From positions 1 to 18,497 of the forward strand of contig JAUUZA010000011.1 of NCBI GenBank assembly GCA_030590165.1: 18,497 bases of DNA, given 5' to 3'. Under the pieces are notes generated by a model. It was not told the origin of the DNA, searched no databases, and saw only the letters and a program-made list of their open reading frames with translations. Shown piece by piece: positions 390 to 16,604 of the stretch (within the stretch, counting starts at the first letter, position 1; every line of letters starts with the position of its first letter). The stretch is from Candidatus Altarchaeota archaeon (GTDB lineage: Archaea > SpSt-1190). The translations under genes and the position numbers were made by a program.

Positions 390-1472
390 ATGGATGAAAA
401 AAAGAGATTAGAACTCATTTTACGTGCGCCAACAGAAGAATTCTTAATGGAAGACGAACTCAAAAACAAAATCAAAAAAGGAGAAAAATTGCGTCATTAT
501 ATTGGTTATGAAGTTTCAGGTCTAATTCATTTAGGAAATTGGCTTACTGCATTTAAAATTGCAGATTTGCAAAAGGCAGGAGTTGAAACTGAAGTTTTTA
601 TGGCAGATTTTCATAGTGTAATTAATAATAAACTTGGAGGCGACGCTGAATTTATAAAAAAAGTAGCTCGTGAATACTTTGAAAAAACAATGAAAATTGG
701 AATTAAAGTTGCAGGAGGCGACCCAGATAAAACAAAATTCACTCTTGCATCTGATGTTTACAATCAAGAGTATTGGGCAAGAGTAATCCAAGTTGGAAAA
801 GAAATTAATCTTTCAAGAGTGAAACGAAGTATAAGTATCATGGGACGCGAGGAAGGAAAAAGTATCCCAACAAGTTGGTTAATTTATCCTCTTATGCAAG
901 CGGCAGATATCTTCCACTTGGGTGTGAATATTGCTTCAGCAGGAATGGACCAAAGAAAAATTCATGTTATAGCACGAGAAGTTGGAATGAAAGTAGCTGG
1001 ATACAAACCAATGGCACTTCATAATCATATGTTGCTTGGACTTCATAAACCACCGGTTTGGCCAGTTCCTAAAGACAAGGAAGACCGTTGGGCTTCGTTT
1101 AAAATGAGTAAATCAAAGAAAGGAAGTGCAATCTATGTCAATGATTCTGAAGATGAAATTCGTAAAAAGATTGATTCGGCATTTTGTCCAGATGAAACCG
1201 GTTACAATCCGGTTCTTGATTGGGTAAAACATATAGTATTTGCACCTCAATTAAAAAGTGAATTCAAAATTATTCGTCCTGAAAAATATGGAGGAAATCT
1301 TAATTACAACTCATATGAAAATGTTGAAAACGATTTTATGAGTAAAAAATTACACCCCTCAGATTTAAAACATGGATTAGGTGACTTCATTGTAAAATTA
1401 CTTGAACCCTTCAGAAAAGAATTCAAAAATAGTACCATCATTGAAGAATTAAAAAATCGAGTCACAAGATAA
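390..1472 (+). CDS. tyrS: Tyrosyl-tRNA synthetase (archaeal type)
   Basis: Class I aminoacyl-tRNA synthetase charging tRNA-Tyr in the cytoplasm. At 360 residues it is slightly longer than the roughly 305-residue Methanocaldococcus enzyme it resembles. Visible motifs are the HIGH-type signature HLGN at residues 47-50 in SGLIHLGNW, the KMSKS loop at 238-242, and the tyrosine-pocket region with Y37 (YIGY) and D173 in MQAADIFHLG. GMDQRKIHVIARE matches the conserved GMEQRKIH block. The C-terminal RPEKYGGNLNYNSYEN and LHPSDLK motifs also match archaeal TyrRS. TrpRS is the close alternative, but the Tyr-pocket residues and C-terminal blocks favour TyrRS. The ATG sits about 25 nt after a TATA-like box. 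The 3' end overlaps the convergent permease gene by 11 bp. Confidence 0.93.
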   Translation: MDEKKRLELILRAPTEEFLMEDELKNKIKKGEKLRHYIGYEVSGLIHLGNWLTAFKIADLQKAGVETEVFMADFHSVINNKLGGDAEFIKKVAREYFEKTMKIGIKVAGGDPDKTKFTLASDVYNQEYWARVIQVGKEINLSRVKRSISIMGREEGKSIPTSWLIYPLMQAADIFHLGVNIASAGMDQRKIHVIAREVGMKVAGYKPMALHNHMLLGLHKPPVWPVPKDKEDRWASFKMSKSKKGSAIYVNDSEDEIRKKIDSAFCPDETGYNPVLDWVKHIVFAPQLKSEFKIIRPEKYGGNLNYNSYENVENDFMSKKLHPSDLKHGLGDFIVKLLEPFRKEFKNSTIIEELKNRVTR

Positions 1473-2559
1473 TTTCAAATAATGAAACGCCTAAAATTGT
1501 CATATAAAATAAGGCAGTGACCAAGGCAAATATCTTGGGGGCAGGTAATCTGGTCTTAATTGCTGGAAGAACCTTATAATATGCATAAGATGCGGTTATT
1601 GCAAACATTGGGAGAGTTAATTCTCCAGCCATACCAAGTATGTCTAAAAATCCAAACCCAAAAAATCCTGAAGTCAAAAAGATAATTAGGGGAGGAACAA
1701 CAACAGCCAAAGTCGATTTTACTCTACTCAATCCAAAATCGAATTGATATATGTGACGCGTACTCAACCCTATTCCTAAAAATGAAGTGAATAAAGCTGT
1801 CATAGTAAATAAAGAAATTATTACATTGAAAATACCACCATAATGAAGTGCAAGTCCCTTTGTTCCAAGGTCAGTTGTCCCAAAACCAAGAACTCCAACA
1901 GTAGTAATTGCAAATCCTAAATAAAGAATAAGACAAATTAAAACTGTTAAAGCAAATACTCTTGCGGCCTTACCCTTTGAGAGAAAATTAATTTCAGGTA
2001 GGACATTCAATCCAAAAAGTGCAAATAAAATTGTTCCAGTAAACTTCATAGTATTTCCAACACTGCTTGTTGCAAATTCAAATTGATTAAAATTTATAAT
2101 ATTAATCCCAGATAAAATTATAAGAAAAACAACGAGGGCAAACGCCAAGGGTATTGCAAGTTTTTCAATGGCCATAGTTCCTTTGTGTATTAACCAAGCT
2201 CCAATAACAAAGAGAAAAATTCCCCCATATGCTTCATTAATCCCAAAAAGAGCATTAAGCTGACTCCCAAAACCAATTAAGTAAGCAGAAATTGCTCCAT
2301 ACATTGAAAATATTAGTGTAAAATAAATAAAATATTTCCAACCGGGTCCTAATGATTGAGAAATAAGAGCTGGGATTTGAATCGGTTTTGTTTCCCGTTT
2401 AAGCATATCTGAAAGCATAATTGCGGAAAGAGTCAGAAAAAAAGCAACAATAATACCTATAAAAATTCCAGAAAACCCAACTAATTGTAAGGCTTTTGGC
2501 AAACCAAGGACACCTGCACCTATATTAGTTGAAATAGCTAGTGCTAATGCTCCCCACAT
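1462..2559 (-). CDS. Amino-acid permease, AAAP/HAAAP-like
   Basis: A 365-residue integral membrane protein with about 11 hydrophobic helices and very short loops. The N-terminus carries STNIGAGVLGLPKAL, which matches the TIGAGILGLP signature of TM1 in the amino acid/auxin and hydroxy/aromatic amino acid permease families of the APC superfamily. The unwound glycine-rich segment there forms the substrate and ion site. It presumably imports one or more amino acids by ion symport; substrate cannot be read from sequence. The ATG at 2559 begins almost directly in TM1, and no in-frame upstream start is needed. It is a single-gene unit, divergent from the gene at 2636 and convergent (11-bp overlap) with tyrS. 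Confidence 0.85.
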   Translation of the reverse strand: MWGALALAISTNIGAGVLGLPKALQLVGFSGIFIGIIVAFFLTLSAIMLSDMLKRETKPIQIPALISQSLGPGWKYFIYFTLIFSMYGAISAYLIGFGSQLNALFGINEAYGGIFLFVIGAWLIHKGTMAIEKLAIPLAFALVVFLIILSGINIINFNQFEFATSSVGNTMKFTGTILFALFGLNVLPEINFLSKGKAARVFALTVLICLILYLGFAITTVGVLGFGTTDLGTKGLALHYGGIFNVIISLFTMTALFTSFLGIGLSTRHIYQFDFGLSRVKSTLAVVVPPLIIFLTSGFFGFGFLDILGMAGELTLPMFAITASYAYYKVLPAIKTRLPAPKIFALVTALFYMTILGVSLFEIIL

Positions 2560-2606
2560 AGAAAAGAGTCAAAATATGAATAGATATGTTGTTTGTTGTT
2601 ACTAAT

Positions 2607-2615
2607 CAATTTAAA
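2607..2615 (+). promoter_or_regulatory. TATA-like box for the degenerate-paralogue/peptidase pair
   Basis: CAATTTAAA is centred 25 nt before the ATG at 2636, with no Shine-Dalgarno motif between. This is the same leaderless arrangement as for other first genes here. Confidence 0.45.
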
Positions 2616-2635
2616 CTCTACCAACACATAATAAA

Positions 2636-3259
2636 ATGTCATTTGACCTGAAACAAATTCCAGCTTATACAATTGAAGAACCCTTCAATCGGCTTAGTGA
2701 AGCCTTTGATGATGTTTCACGAAGAGACATAATTGAAAAACTTGAAAAATTCAATAATTTTAAAATTAAAAAAACAAGAGAAGAAGACCCTCCCATTATA
2801 GAATATAATTCTGAAACTAATATTATGACTCTTTCTGATGACTTAGTTCCTGAAACTGACTTCACTTTAAAAAATGTTTTCAAACAATTTTTCAAAATAA
2901 GTCAACCACTAAAATATGTTTTACAGGATAATAGTATTTCATCAACAGAAAGAAGTAGTTTATATTCAGAAATGCTTGAAGTTGTTTTAAAATTATACCA
3001 AGAAAGTGCAAAAATCATTATGAAAAATGAAAATAAAAAAGAGTATAAACTTCTTACTACGGCATATGGTTTTTTGATGAGTTGTTATTTTGACCAAAGA
3101 GAAGTGGGAGATAAAACTAATCCTAATGAAATTGAAAAAATTGCATTTGAAATAACATGCGGAACTATGAGATTAAACCAAACCAAAATTAAAAATAAAT
3201 TATTTGATGAAATATTAGCTTCTTATGTTGTGGAAAATAAAAAGCAGGTAATTAAATGA
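2636..3259 (+). CDS. Unknown protein, apparently a metal-site-degenerate paralogue of the downstream metallopeptidase
   Basis: I recognise no named family in this 207-residue soluble protein. By eye it resembles the product of the next gene at two places. The N-terminus (IPAYTIEEPFNRL, then DIIEKL) parallels FPEITLSSPFEKL, then EIIPYL. Residues 119-145 (KLYQESAK ... TTAYG) parallel VLCHEGAH ... PTAYG. If the alignment is right, the zinc-binding HExxH of the neighbour is replaced by QESAK at 122-126 and the EEG third-ligand motif is missing, so this copy could not bind zinc in the same way. It would then be an inactive partner, regulator or substrate-binding subunit; that is inference. The last four bases (ATGA) are the start of the peptidase gene, so the two are translationally coupled. 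The alternative is an unrelated helical protein with chance similarity. Confidence 0.72.
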   Translation: MSFDLKQIPAYTIEEPFNRLSEAFDDVSRRDIIEKLEKFNNFKIKKTREEDPPIIEYNSETNIMTLSDDLVPETDFTLKNVFKQFFKISQPLKYVLQDNSISSTERSSLYSEMLEVVLKLYQESAKIIMKNENKKEYKLLTTAYGFLMSCYFDQREVGDKTNPNEIEKIAFEITCGTMRLNQTKIKNKLFDEILASYVVENKKQVIK

Positions 3260-3987
3260 TAGCCTTTCCCGAAATAACTTTGAGTTCACCTTTTGAAAAA
3301 TTAGAAAAAGTTTATTCAAAAATGGGAGAGAAAGAAATAATTCCTTATTTAATTTATTTCACTAAAGTTAAAACTTCAAATAAACTTGGAGAAGATCAAG
3401 GACAATTTAAATTTGAAATTAAAAAATTCTTTAATAAAATCAAGAATAAGAGTGAAATCACAATTAATTCAAATCTTTTAAATAGAAAGGGAACTTTAGG
3501 AAAGGTCTTAACTCCACTTTATCACAATTATAATTCAAATAGTTTAAACCGAAATGGAAATTTAGGAAATATCTTGACTCTACTTTATCAAAATTATAAT
3601 TCAAGTTTATCATTTGAAAATCTTATTGAAATAAATAAATATTTAGAACTTTTTAATGTACTTTGTCACGAAGGTGCCCATGCAGCCGTTGCATATACTG
3701 ATGGCAGTTATAGAAGGATTGAAGAAGGATTACCCACGGCATACGGACAATTAAGTGTTTATCGCTTATTAAACGAAGGTGACGAAACTTCTTCTATTGA
3801 AACAACTAAGAACGCTTTAGAAAAAAGTCTTAATTCTCAAACTATTCCTGATGAGCGTAAAAAAATATATGTAGCCCCTGCACTAAATATAATAAAATTT
3901 GTGAAAAATACAAAAAACGCATCAGTAGAAGATATAATCGCAGACAAAATTTCACTCGAATATGTTTATTCACAATTTAATGACTGA
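3256..3987 (+). CDS. Putative zinc metallopeptidase (HEGAH motif)
   Basis: The 243-residue product contains HEGAH at residues 138-142, a perfect HExxH, followed by EEG at 156-158 in RRIEEGLPTAYG. HExxH plus a downstream glutamate is the gluzincin arrangement, with two His and one Glu binding zinc and the motif Glu activating water. The HEGAH-to-EEG pattern resembles peptidase-MA-type proteins. No signal peptide or membrane helix is visible, so it is probably cytoplasmic. Residues 71-114 hold a 22-residue unit repeated twice in tandem (see repeat entry), just before the catalytic helix. It is coupled to the previous gene by an ATGA overlap, with a weak AGGT motif upstream of the start. Its 3' end overlaps the convergent acyl-CoA synthetase gene by 18 bp. 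Substrate is unknown; a non-peptidase zincin is possible. Confidence 0.72.
   Translation: MIAFPEITLSSPFEKLEKVYSKMGEKEIIPYLIYFTKVKTSNKLGEDQGQFKFEIKKFFNKIKNKSEITINSNLLNRKGTLGKVLTPLYHNYNSNSLNRNGNLGNILTLLYQNYNSSLSFENLIEINKYLELFNVLCHEGAHAAVAYTDGSYRRIEEGLPTAYGQLSVYRLLNEGDETSSIETTKNALEKSLNSQTIPDERKKIYVAPALNIIKFVKNTKNASVEDIIADKISLEYVYSQFND
3466..3597 (+). repeat. In-frame 66-bp tandem repeat within the metallopeptidase gene
   Basis: Two adjacent 66-bp copies (3466-3531 and 3532-3597) are followed by the first bases of a third. Each encodes a 22-residue unit of the form S-N-x-LNR-x-G-x-LG-x-(V/I)LT-x-LY-x-NYN. The copies have diverged at both DNA and protein level but keep the frame exactly. Confidence 0.85.
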
Positions 3988-5286
3988 TAAAATTTTTGAT
4001 GCCCTATTAGGAGAAGCAACAATTGGAACTCCTTTTATTTGTTCATTCACTTTACTCGCATAAAATCCAGGTGGTGAAACTACAATAATTGGTTTCTTTC
4101 CTTTTTTAAATTTGTCAATAACTTTTACAATTCCTTCAGTAAGTTTCGGGAGTTGAAGTAAGAGAATTATAATAATTGCATCAACTTCAGATTCTTTCAT
4201 TAAAGCTGAAATTGCCTCGTCAAACATCTCAGGAGTTGCATCCCCAGTTAAATCAATAGGATTAGAAACTGAAACTCGTTTTGGAAATTTTGAAATAAGA
4301 TTCTTCTGAAGATTATCTGAAAGTGTTGAGAGTTCAATACCATATTTTTCTAAAGTATCACTTGCCATAACACCAAATCCACCACCACAAGTAACTATTC
4401 CTGCTTTTTTCACTTTAGTTTTCCAAATACTTCTAAGTTTTAAAACTTGTAAAAAATCTTCCATATTAGTTACTATCTCCCACTCAAGTTGTTTAACAAC
4501 ACCTTTGAAAACTTTAAAATTTCCAGCCATCGCCCCAGTATGACTCTTTGCAGCTTTTATTCCCTGCGTCGTTATTCCTGCTTTAAACACAATTACTGGT
4601 TTTTTTCCTCTCTTAGCAACTTCAATTAATTTTCTTCCGTCCTTTAATCCTTCAACATAAAATCCAATTACTTCAGTTTCAGGGTCATTCATAAAATAAT
4701 CTAAAATTTCATAATCACTAATTAGAAGTTGATTTCCATAACTCGCTATTTTTGAAATTCCAAGACCTATATTTCCTGCCCAATCTAAAATACTAGCAAC
4801 AGTTGCCCCACTTTGACTTAAAATACTCACCCTGCCTTTTGGAGGCATTCTCACTCGTGATAAGGGTAAAAAGGTAGCATTCAAATCATTTTTTGTATTT
4901 AGAACTCCAAGACAATTTGGTCCCCAAATCTCAATCCCAAATTTATCTGAAATTTTTTTTAATTCATTATCTAAATCTTCACGATTTGATTCACCAAATC
5001 CCCCAGATAAAATTACTGCACCTTTCAATTTGTGGGCCACTTCCTTCAAAGTTTTTACAACTGCTTCAGCAGGAATTACAAAAATTCCTAAATCAACTTC
5101 AGGAAGATTCTTTAAACTGAAAATTTTATGTCCATTAATTTCTTTTGCATTTGGATTCACCCCATAAATTTTTCCTGGAAAATCACTATTCATTAAATTT
5201 TCAAAAACTGTTCGCCCCGGTTTTTCTAATTTTCGGCTCACACCAAAAACTGCAACCGACTTCGGATTAAAAAACACTTTGAGCAT
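3970..5286 (-). CDS. ADP-forming acetyl/acyl-CoA synthetase, alpha subunit
   Basis: This 438-residue protein matches the alpha subunit of archaeal NDP-forming acyl-CoA synthetase. The enzyme converts acetyl-CoA (or another acyl-CoA), ADP and phosphate to the free acid, CoA and ATP. An N-terminal CoA-binding Rossmann domain (FNPKSVAVFGVSRK, about residues 6-130) is followed by succinyl-CoA-ligase-like domains with SILSQSGA. The phospho-accepting catalytic histidine is H249 in KSHTGAMAG. The length is near the roughly 460 residues of separately encoded alpha subunits, so it is not the alpha-beta fusion. No beta subunit (ATP-grasp) is in the window; it must be encoded elsewhere for activity. The ATG at 5286 is preceded by its own TATA box. 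The 3' end overlaps the metallopeptidase gene by 18 bp, convergently. Confidence 0.9.
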   Translation of the reverse strand: MLKVFFNPKSVAVFGVSRKLEKPGRTVFENLMNSDFPGKIYGVNPNAKEINGHKIFSLKNLPEVDLGIFVIPAEAVVKTLKEVAHKLKGAVILSGGFGESNREDLDNELKKISDKFGIEIWGPNCLGVLNTKNDLNATFLPLSRVRMPPKGRVSILSQSGATVASILDWAGNIGLGISKIASYGNQLLISDYEILDYFMNDPETEVIGFYVEGLKDGRKLIEVAKRGKKPVIVFKAGITTQGIKAAKSHTGAMAGNFKVFKGVVKQLEWEIVTNMEDFLQVLKLRSIWKTKVKKAGIVTCGGGFGVMASDTLEKYGIELSTLSDNLQKNLISKFPKRVSVSNPIDLTGDATPEMFDEAISALMKESEVDAIIIILLLQLPKLTEGIVKVIDKFKKGKKPIIVVSPPGFYASKVNEQIKGVPIVASPNRASKILSVIKL

Positions 5287-13372: not shown

Positions 13373-13912
13373 ATGAGTAATTTATTTGATATTATAAAAT
13401 CGGGAGAACAACAAATCAAACCAGGTGTAATTGCCAGAACACAATTTGAAGAAGGGTATTGTGGTGTTCTTGACATATACATACATAATGAAGCAAAATT
13501 GAAAAGAAATAAAGATAAAAATAAAATTTATGTTGTTGACCTCAAAGGAAAAAGATGGCTCGGTGCATTTGAAAATGCCGACTATCCATACAAAGAATTA
13601 CAACCATATGATAGATTTGGTAATTCCGCATACTTTCCAATGAGGTTTAAAGATTTAGATGAATTTCCAACTTCAAATGAAGGAAGCTTTCTTTCAGGAA
13701 ATAGTGTATATAATATAAACATTTTCTTTCCAATAACTAAGGATGAACAAGAGGGAGACATAACAATGTCTTTTGAGGAAGAAAATGTAAGTAAAAAGTT
13801 ATCTAATTATCTTAAACAAATTTTACCTAGAATGGGAGTCCCTAAAATAGATACTGAAACTATTGTTGAAGATATTTTCAAAAAATTAGGTTATTCTAAA
13901 ATAGGAAACTAA
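13373..13912 (+). CDS. Unknown protein, first of a tandem paralogous pair
   Basis: This 179-residue soluble protein belongs to no family I recognise. It is clearly paralogous to the next gene's product along its whole length. Shared blocks in order are an EEG motif near residue 27, IHN near 38, KGK-RW-GAFE near 58-67, QPYDR at 77-81, TSNEGSFLSG at 100-109, and the tail LPRMGVP (151-157) followed by EDIFKKLGYSKIG. The tail is best conserved and looks helical, perhaps for oligomerisation or partner binding. QPYDR and FLSG look like functional-site loops rather than structural filler, but no catalytic signature is known to me. There is no signal peptide or membrane helix. Confidence 0.7.
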   Translation: MSNLFDIIKSGEQQIKPGVIARTQFEEGYCGVLDIYIHNEAKLKRNKDKNKIYVVDLKGKRWLGAFENADYPYKELQPYDRFGNSAYFPMRFKDLDEFPTSNEGSFLSGNSVYNINIFFPITKDEQEGDITMSFEEENVSKKLSNYLKQILPRMGVPKIDTETIVEDIFKKLGYSKIGN

Positions 13913-14017: not shown

Positions 14018-14560
14018 ATGAACACTCCAACTGACGAAAATACCTTATTAAACATAATAAATTCTAAAAATAAAAGAATTCCAGAAGGGATAATTCTCAA
14101 AGCAAGGTTTGATGAGGGTCTTCGTGGACACATCCATATTTACACACATAATACAATAAAATTCAAACTTTCAGAAAGCGAAAATTATTTTATTAATTTT
14201 GAAGGTAAAAAATGGGTTGGAAGCTTTGAAACTAAAAACGGGTTATCTGAAAAAATACAACCATATGATAGACACCCACCAATGTATCTTCCCACAACTT
14301 TAGAAAAAATGGATGAATTATTGACTTCAAATAATGGGAGATTCCTCTCAGGTAAAAGAGCTCAAAACATACGTACCTCACTCAAAATAAAAAATTACAG
14401 TGACGAAGTAACAAAATATTTTAAGACTGAAAACTCAAACGATGAACTGTCCCAATATCTAGAACACATTTTACCTAGAATCGGCGTGCCTCAATTAGAG
14501 GTTAAATTTATTATTGAAGATATCTTCAAAAAGTTGGATTATTCTAAAATTGGGAAATAA
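14018..14560 (+). CDS. Unknown protein, second of a tandem paralogous pair
   Basis: A 180-residue paralogue of the preceding gene, with matching blocks EGKKW-GSFE (62-71), IQPYDR (80-85), LTSNNGRFLSG (102-112), ILPRIGVP (151-158) and EDIFKKLDYSKIG at the end. Roughly a third or more of positions look identical by eye, with insertions and deletions concentrated in the middle (about residues 115-140). The duplication is therefore old enough for the copies to have specialised, yet both keep the same motifs and full length, so both are probably under selection. Function is unknown. A near-copy of the 36-bp repeat follows directly after the stop codon. Confidence 0.7.
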   Translation: MNTPTDENTLLNIINSKNKRIPEGIILKARFDEGLRGHIHIYTHNTIKFKLSESENYFINFEGKKWVGSFETKNGLSEKIQPYDRHPPMYLPTTLEKMDELLTSNNGRFLSGKRAQNIRTSLKIKNYSDEVTKYFKTENSNDELSQYLEHILPRIGVPQLEVKFIIEDIFKKLDYSKIGK

Positions 14561-14598: not shown

Positions 14599-14616
14599 TC
14601 AAACTAAAGTGTTAAT

Positions 14617-14689
14617 GGGGTCGTGGTCTAGTGGTTATGACGCTGCCTTGACATGGCAGAGGTCCCCGGTTCAAATCCGGGCGTCCCCA
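14617..14689 (+). tRNA. tRNA-Val (GAC)
   Basis: A complete 73-nt cloverleaf without an intron. Acceptor strands are GGGGTCG and CGTCCCC, the anticodon stem CTGCC/GGCAG encloses loop TTGACAT with anticodon GAC (valine), and the T arm is CCCGG-TTCAAAT-CCGGG. The discriminator is A. CCA is not encoded and must be added post-transcriptionally. The D arm carries TAGTGGTTA with the conserved GG. The acceptor stem has one mismatch, U5 opposite U68, where related archaeal tRNA-Val genes usually have U-A. Confidence 0.96.
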
Positions 14690-14711
14690 TGTTCTTTATT
14701 TTTTACGTGAA

Positions 14712-15171: not shown

Positions 15172-15849
15172 GTGTTTGGAAAGCAGGAATTAGGAAAATC
15201 TCATAAAACAAAGTATTTTTCTATTACAAAAAAGAAGGACAGTTTTATCTATAAAAGAGACCAAAAAATAGTTCAAATTGTTGGGAAGAAAATAAATTTG
15301 AATGTACTGCCTCTTTCTCCAATAAATTTACCAAATAGACTCACAAATCATTTTGTGGTTGACTTTCCTGAAATTTATTTGTCTCCAGAAGGAAAACAAA
15401 TTATATTCTTAAGCATTCCAATTGAAATTGGAGTTTTTGTCAATGAAAGACTCGTTGACACTTTTGGATTTACTAAACCAGAATTTACATTATACGGTCC
15501 AGTCAAGGGAGGTATTATTTCCCGAATTGTCAAAGGGGAAAAAGTTGATGAAACCTCCACACCTAAATTTGGATATGCAATAATGCCACTTCGAATAAAA
15601 AATTATAATACACGAGTCAGACGAACTTCAAAAATTTTAATTAATTCAAGATATCTTGATTTTTATTATGGTGAAAAAAAATCCAATAAAGTAGAAAAAG
15701 TCTCAACTGAAATGATTAAACTTGATATCAAAGGAAGTATAAAAGTCAGAAATATGAATAAATGTTTTTTCAAAGGAATGACAAAGGTAAAAGCTAAGAC
15801 TCAATTACTCAAAAAAGAAGAATCAATTGATATGAGGTGGGGTATATGA
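15172..15849 (+). CDS. DUF432-family protein
   Basis: A 225-residue soluble, beta-rich protein resembling the archaeal DUF432 family. Supporting stretches are FLSIPIEIGVFVNERL, FTLYGPVKGGIISR and FGYAIMPLRIKNYN. No biochemical function is established for the family. As I recall it, DUF432 genes tend to sit next to mechanosensitive channel genes, and here the stop codon TGA lies inside the start of an mscS gene (ATGA, 15846-15849). A role in gating or assembling the channel is a reasonable inference, not shown. The start is GTG at 15172. Family assignment is from memory of motifs and is moderately sure. Confidence 0.7.
   Translation: MFGKQELGKSHKTKYFSITKKKDSFIYKRDQKIVQIVGKKINLNVLPLSPINLPNRLTNHFVVDFPEIYLSPEGKQIIFLSIPIEIGVFVNERLVDTFGFTKPEFTLYGPVKGGIISRIVKGEKVDETSTPKFGYAIMPLRIKNYNTRVRRTSKILINSRYLDFYYGEKKSNKVEKVSTEMIKLDIKGSIKVRNMNKCFFKGMTKVKAKTQLLKKEESIDMRWGI
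15834..15840 (+). promoter_or_regulatory. Shine-Dalgarno GAGGTGG deciding the mscS start
   Basis: GAGGTGG lies 5 nt before ATG 15846 and contains the alternative GTG 15837 itself. Initiation at ATG 15846, coupled to the DUF432 stop, is therefore much more likely. Confidence 0.65.
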
Positions 15850-16604
15850 TTGGAATTGAAATACTTTATGGAATTATAACTTTCATAATAGGATTTATTG
15901 TAATAAAACGAATTAATAAATTCACTGAAAAATCCTTCAAAAAGAAAATGCCAACAGGAATGGCAAAAAATTCGGCTCGTTTAACATACTATATTTTAAT
16001 GTTCTTACTTGCTATGGCATCACTTCAAGTTGCCGGATTTAAAATTGAAAGTCTATTGGTTGCAGGAGGAGTCATTGGTATGGCCATTGGTTTCGCGAGT
16101 CAGAAGACAGTTTCAAATCTTATTTCTGGATTATTCTTGTATGTCGACCGCCCTTTTGACCTAGGTGATAGTGTTGATATTAATGGTGTTGGGGGCGTTG
16201 TTGAAGACATTCAACCCTTAAGTACAAAATTAAGAACTTGGAATGGGCCTATTATGCGAATCCCAAATGAAAAAGTATTTGGTGCAAATATAACAAATTA
16301 TAAACAAATTGCGGCAAGAAGATTTGTACACAAGATTAGAATTTCTTATGATAGTGATATTGACAAAGCAATGACAATTATTAAAAAAATAATTGATGAC
16401 GAAATTTTTATTTTAAAAAATCCCTCTCCATCAGTAATCGTGACTGGTTTATTGGACTCCGCAATTGAAATCCAAATAAAAGCTTGGACACCAAGTTCAA
16501 AATTATATTCAGTAAAAACTAAAATTTTGAAGACATTTTATCTTGCGTTAAAGAAAAATAAAATAAAGATTCCTTATAATCAACTTCGTGTTCATCTAAA
16601 ATAA
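15846..16604 (+). CDS. mscS: Small-conductance mechanosensitive channel, MscS family
   Basis: A 252-residue homoheptameric channel subunit that opens under membrane tension and releases osmolytes on hypo-osmotic shock. It has three N-terminal helices (about 3-20, 46-62 and 69-100). The last is the pore-lining TM3 with the Ala/Gly packing pattern LLVAGGVIGMAIGFASQ and the following NLISGLFLYVDRPFDLGD, the most conserved MscS block. A beta domain (VGGVVEDIQPLSTKLRTW, MRIPNEKV) and an alpha/beta cytoplasmic domain follow. Length is close to the E. coli protein (286). I use ATG 15846 rather than GTG 15837 because the latter falls inside the ribosome-binding site. The gene is coupled to the DUF432 gene. 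Confidence 0.93.
   Translation: MIGIEILYGIITFIIGFIVIKRINKFTEKSFKKKMPTGMAKNSARLTYYILMFLLAMASLQVAGFKIESLLVAGGVIGMAIGFASQKTVSNLISGLFLYVDRPFDLGDSVDINGVGGVVEDIQPLSTKLRTWNGPIMRIPNEKVFGANITNYKQIAARRFVHKIRISYDSDIDKAMTIIKKIIDDEIFILKNPSPSVIVTGLLDSAIEIQIKAWTPSSKLYSVKTKILKTFYLALKKNKIKIPYNQLRVHLK

Follow-up and report, generated by a model that had tools for sequence, protein, structure and literature searches.

Overlapping archaeal genes for a probable zinc peptidase and a putative paralogue without a metal site

How does the gene for a single enzyme give way to a pair, one of whose products lacks the active site? This question is raised by two overlapping genes, here named P1 and P2, of a Candidatus Altarchaeota archaeon from the SpSt-1190 lineage, the reported habitats of which are hydrothermal vents and oxygen-deficient waters (PMC10936187). 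The window, meaning the whole stretch of 18,497 nucleotides that was analysed, is one entire contig of a 724-kb genome in 64 contigs. Within it, the two genes lie between flanking genes on the opposite strand, and the locus is composed as follows:

1462-2559, minus strand: Trp/Tyr-permease-like gene, the flank on the P1 side
2560-2635, plus strand: intergenic region 5' of P1, resembling the region 5' of the single intact gene in the relative G006
2610-2615, plus strand: TTTAAA, a possible TATA box in that intergenic region
2636-3259, plus strand: P1, 207 aa, a probable degenerate paralogue of P2, without histidine, HExxH or EEG
Within P1, just 5' of the ATGA overlap, plus strand: AGGT, a possible Shine-Dalgarno sequence
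3256-3259, plus strand: ATGA, the 4-nt overlap of the P1 stop and P2 start, read from the sequence
3256-3987, plus strand: P2, 243 aa, probably a zinc peptidase, bearing HEGAH and EEG
3970-5286, minus strand: CoA-ligase-like gene, the flank on the P2 side

Both open reading frames and their overlap are present as the preliminary description had them, yet its statement that the two proteins are made together goes beyond what an ATGA junction can convey. Same-strand genes meet at 276 junctions in this genome, 30 of which are such overlaps, the commonest junction type, hence the one joining P1 to P2 is no special sign. The arrangement suggests co-transcription and translational coupling, rather than the existence of a complex.

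The downstream product is the more readily interpreted of the two, through these features:

3265-3351, plus strand: N-terminal block of P2, FPEITLSSPFEKL...EIIPYL, residues F4-L32
3466-3531 and 3532-3597, plus strand: the two copies of an internal tandem duplication of 22 residues (66 bp), absent from P1 and from the relatives
3667-3681, plus strand: HEGAH, an HExxH zinc-binding motif, with H, E and H invariant in five family members
3721-3729, plus strand: EEG, the Glu before Gly being the presumed third zinc ligand, 14 residues past HExxH
3736-3747, plus strand: TAYG, a motif also in P1

P2 is probably a small zinc peptidase of the gluzincin type, likely cytosolic or otherwise soluble. Residues H138, E139 and H142 are invariant in the alignment of the five family members, and reading of the sequences finds Glu-Gly in all five, at 12-26 residues after HExxH in the relatives; the alignment column of E157 is also invariant, with the member from G002 placed imperfectly there. 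The codon usage of P2 is of the coding type, and its internal duplication, with 63 of 75 bases alike at an offset of 66, is apparently recent. Known families offer little by way of a name, as no Pfam or NCBIfam model reached its cut-off in a scan of P2, and the match to the SprT-like Pfam model PF10263 fell below threshold (16.9 bits, cut-off 25.6). In the predicted structure, HExxH lies inside a long helix of the C-terminal half (pLDDT about 63-87), and the N-terminal half is poorly modelled; in an uninformative fold search, all the proteins that this model retrieved were helical, 14-3-3 among them (Z ≤4.1), and none was a zincin. No relative of solved structure was found by sequence, or by fold search with the same imperfect model, nor were relatives of P2 found in viral contigs and phage records.

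The history of the locus is best read from the same slot in related genomes. When 394 genomes were searched by profile, members of the P2 family turned up only in this genome and in four relatives, to the closest of which P2 is 29-30% identical, such that the family appears to be lineage-restricted and previously undescribed, with the H, E, H and Glu of the putative zinc site invariant in its five members. In G005 (HEKYH...DEEG), G006 (HEAAH...EEG) and G004 (HEGFH...DEG), the slot between the same two flanking genes holds a single gene. In G002, it holds one HExxH gene (HELAH...DEG) followed by an HD-domain gene, which the intact HExxH gene overlaps within the slot (L025:351-2133); the extra genes acquired by the slot therefore differ from one relative to another. 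It is empty in G001, with only 59 bp between the matches to the flanking genes, and neither flanking gene has a match in G003. The slots of G001, G002, G004, G005 and G006 contain no homologue of P1. Hence the conserved adjacency that the preliminary description had proposed to look for is not what the relatives display, since four have the intact gene only, one has neither gene and one has no flank match. Nor can the inactive sister be called obligate, as that description had it: the family needs no sister subunit, because four relatives carry the intact gene alone in the same slot. Two other readings of the locus were rejected: an assembly artefact, given that flanking gene order is identical in relatives, and a defence or toxin-antitoxin function, given that PADLOC gave no match of note and that the peptidase occurs by itself in relatives.

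The upstream product, P1, has so far a single occurrence, in an incomplete genome, and the features that invite its comparison with P2 are:

2657-2743, plus strand: N-terminal block of P1, IPAYTIEEPFNRL...DIIEKL, residues I8-L36, shared ungapped with P2
2999-3013, plus strand: QESAK, opposite HExxH when aligned by MAFFT or with BLOSUM45
3059-3070, plus strand: TAYG, a motif also in P2

As first described, HEGAH and EEG are found in P2 only. P1 contains no histidine at all, and no HExxH, so it cannot form a zinc site in any register, a conclusion independent of alignment. The more specific claim that QESAK takes the place of HEGAH holds in the alignments made with MAFFT and BLOSUM45, but the best BLOSUM62 alignment gives another register. 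P1 nevertheless has the marks of a protein-coding gene: its codon usage scores 0.198 bits per codon in its own frame, the other two plus-strand frames scoring -0.25 and -0.33, and a 207-codon open frame would arise by chance at the local base composition with a probability of about 2e-9. That the frame stays open after divergence to about 23% identity, with coding codon usage, indicates that P1 has not been drifting freely as a relic, and this intact frame, in a single known sequence, argues for selection on the protein. A hit of P1 to the HK97 capsid NCBIfam model (20 bits, cut-off 80) was rejected as chance; three weak matches within the same domain were not accepted as relatives, as they were short, had low scores and were in part interrupted by stop codons; and viral contigs yielded no relatives.

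Whether P1 is homologous to P2 is a question on which different comparisons disagree. Both proteins have the N-terminal pattern noted originally, ungapped and with the same spacing, and both have TAYG, although, by our own estimate, sharing one such four-letter word is close to what chance alone would give for proteins of these lengths. It could be that P1 is unrelated, a lineage-specific small gene inserted into the slot, and that the similarity arose by chance between two proteins rich in Lys, Asn and Glu. Consistent with this, BLASTP between P1 and P2 is not significant (E = 2.2), and the profile-profile comparison suggested in the preliminary description, run with hhalign between P1 and the P2 family, gave no significance either (E = 0.16). 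Nor do family profiles single P1 out, which ranks 3rd to 43rd of about 400 proteins whether P2 is combined with its relatives or omitted, and P1 shows no resemblance to the proteins of G005 or G006. Against this, when 488 proteins of the same genome were ranked against P2 by composition-corrected score, P1 came first under all four scoring schemes (shuffle z = 5.05, 8.12, 5.55 and 5.85, runner-up ≤4.8, decoy proteins being drawn from about 400 kb of the genome's own contigs); where z is 8.12, the next protein is at 4.5, and the P1-P2 score was equalled in at most 1 of 1000 shuffles. The N-terminal and C-terminal matching segments are colinear, and the order of predicted helices is equal in the two models, at low confidence, with P1 at a pLDDT of 40.5 and the shared alignment partly driving the result. 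A fold search with this weak model of P1 was uninformative, returning designed or generic helical proteins only (Z ≤8.6). Furthermore, P1 sits precisely at the slot in which relatives have their single peptidase gene, and the DNA 5' of P1 resembles that 5' of the intact gene in G006 to a degree reached in none of 2000 shuffles, albeit part of this region may serve the divergent permease gene. The similarity of P1 thus appears to be above chance against P2 alone. Judged from these comparisons, P1 is quite probably a paralogue of P2, and its being an unrelated insertion is rather unlikely. An active peptidase beside a paralogue with a broken site, as initially proposed, is the best-supported reading, with the paralogy drawn from moderate statistics plus position.

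If P1 is a paralogue, there are several fates that a copy without metal ligands could have met. Decay of a non-functional duplicate would explain the loss of the active-site motif, the absence from P1 of the conserved C-terminal Pro block and its occurrence in a single genome, but is very improbable for 207 coding-type codons that have diverged this far without a stop or frameshift. Alternatively, P1 may have become a self-derived inhibitor, filling the ancestral dimer or substrate site so that P2 stays off until P1 is removed. The promoter-proximal position of the P1 gene, and an open frame kept although its metal ligands are gone, would suit such a role, which we nonetheless consider quite unlikely, as the intact peptidase of the relatives has no inhibitor gene in its slot. 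Distinctly unlikely, too, is an independent non-catalytic role not exerted through P2, such as the binding of a ligand or substrate, with the joint transcript a relic of duplication: the extreme divergence of P1 from P2 and its family, and the ordinariness of ATGA overlaps in this genome, speak for it, whereas the tight overlap suggests co-expression and P1 has no known separate context.

The account we prefer is instead one of duplication followed by division of labour. The ancestral state would have been a single gene for a gluzincin-like peptidase, with HExxH and Glu-Gly, between the permease-like and CoA-ligase-like genes, which was then duplicated in tandem in the lineage of the window. 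The promoter-distal copy, P2, would have retained its zinc site and is presumably active; the promoter-proximal copy, P1, would have lost all zinc ligands and diverged fast, while remaining intact, coding and probably co-transcribed. Most likely, P1 would now function non-catalytically, through binding to P2; the homodimer of the ancestor would have become a heteromer, in which P1 would shape the substrate binding, stability or activity of P2. The duplication origin is supported by the evidence above, and the activity of P2, its contact with P1 and the effect of that contact are what we infer from it. Overall, we give even chances to a tandem duplication having turned P1 into a fast-evolving, non-catalytic partner that binds P2. 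More tentatively, it is possible, if short of probable, that this is a lineage-restricted, undescribed family of archaeal zinc peptidases in which one lineage's tandem duplication produced an operon-encoded heteromer of active and inactive subunits.

Pairings of this type have precedents. Bacterial M16B peptidases include both a homodimer (BHP) and heterodimers encoded by neighbouring genes with one metal site (PMC12731061), the latter also being described elsewhere in bacteria (PMC11266112). The M16B pairs TTHA1264/TTHA1265, SPH2681/SPH2682 and AlbF/AlbE, like the alpha and beta subunits of mitochondrial MPP, combine an active zinc peptidase with a homologue devoid of a metal site, as proposed here, and the prokaryotic subunits come from neighbouring genes, as P1 and P2 do. 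However, M16B is a family unrelated to P2, M16 enzymes having an inverted HxxEH and subunits of about 45 kDa, whereas the present pair has HExxH in P2 (HEGAH), comprises 207 and 243 residues, and is known from its genes alone. P2 itself is closer in kind to small zincins, namely gluzincins, minigluzincins and SprT-like proteins, in which HExxH precedes a conserved Glu in a small protein, as it does the Glu-Gly of P2; it differs in lying below all Pfam and NCBIfam cut-offs, and in the variable spacing from HExxH to Glu in its family, from 12 to 26. In archaea, the genes for Rrp41 and Rrp42 are adjacent. These RNase PH paralogues occur in one ring complex, the exosome (PMC3539426), with the catalytic centre assigned to Rrp41 (PMC7667871), yet they are unrelated enzymes of the RNase PH fold and widely conserved, in contrast to a pair found in one genome. 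Hence the original claim that no archaeal pair of this sort had been described stands for the P2 peptidase family within the literature searched, and not for the arrangement, already familiar from M16B and the exosome. What is new is an example in an undescribed peptidase family, in one genome.

Were the preferred account true, the step from a single-gene to a two-gene enzyme could be compared between close relatives. The same slot would show the birth of a pseudoenzyme, both before, in four relatives with one intact gene, and after, with an active and a dead copy. What the dead copy adds would be testable by comparing the proteins of both states, in a small-genome archaeon.

Elsewhere in the window, on the plus strand, the adjacent genes at 13373-13912 and 14018-14560 encode proteins of about 180 aa that are 42% identical and have no Pfam match above cut-off. 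This pair, the sole two copies in the genome, adjoins a tRNA-Val gene (14616-14690), and appears from its sequence to be a second tandem duplication, much clearer than that of P1 and P2. Further downstream, a gene for a DUF432 protein (15172-15849, plus strand) overlaps one resembling an MscS-type mechanosensitive channel (15837-16604, plus strand), MscS being assigned by reading of the sequence.
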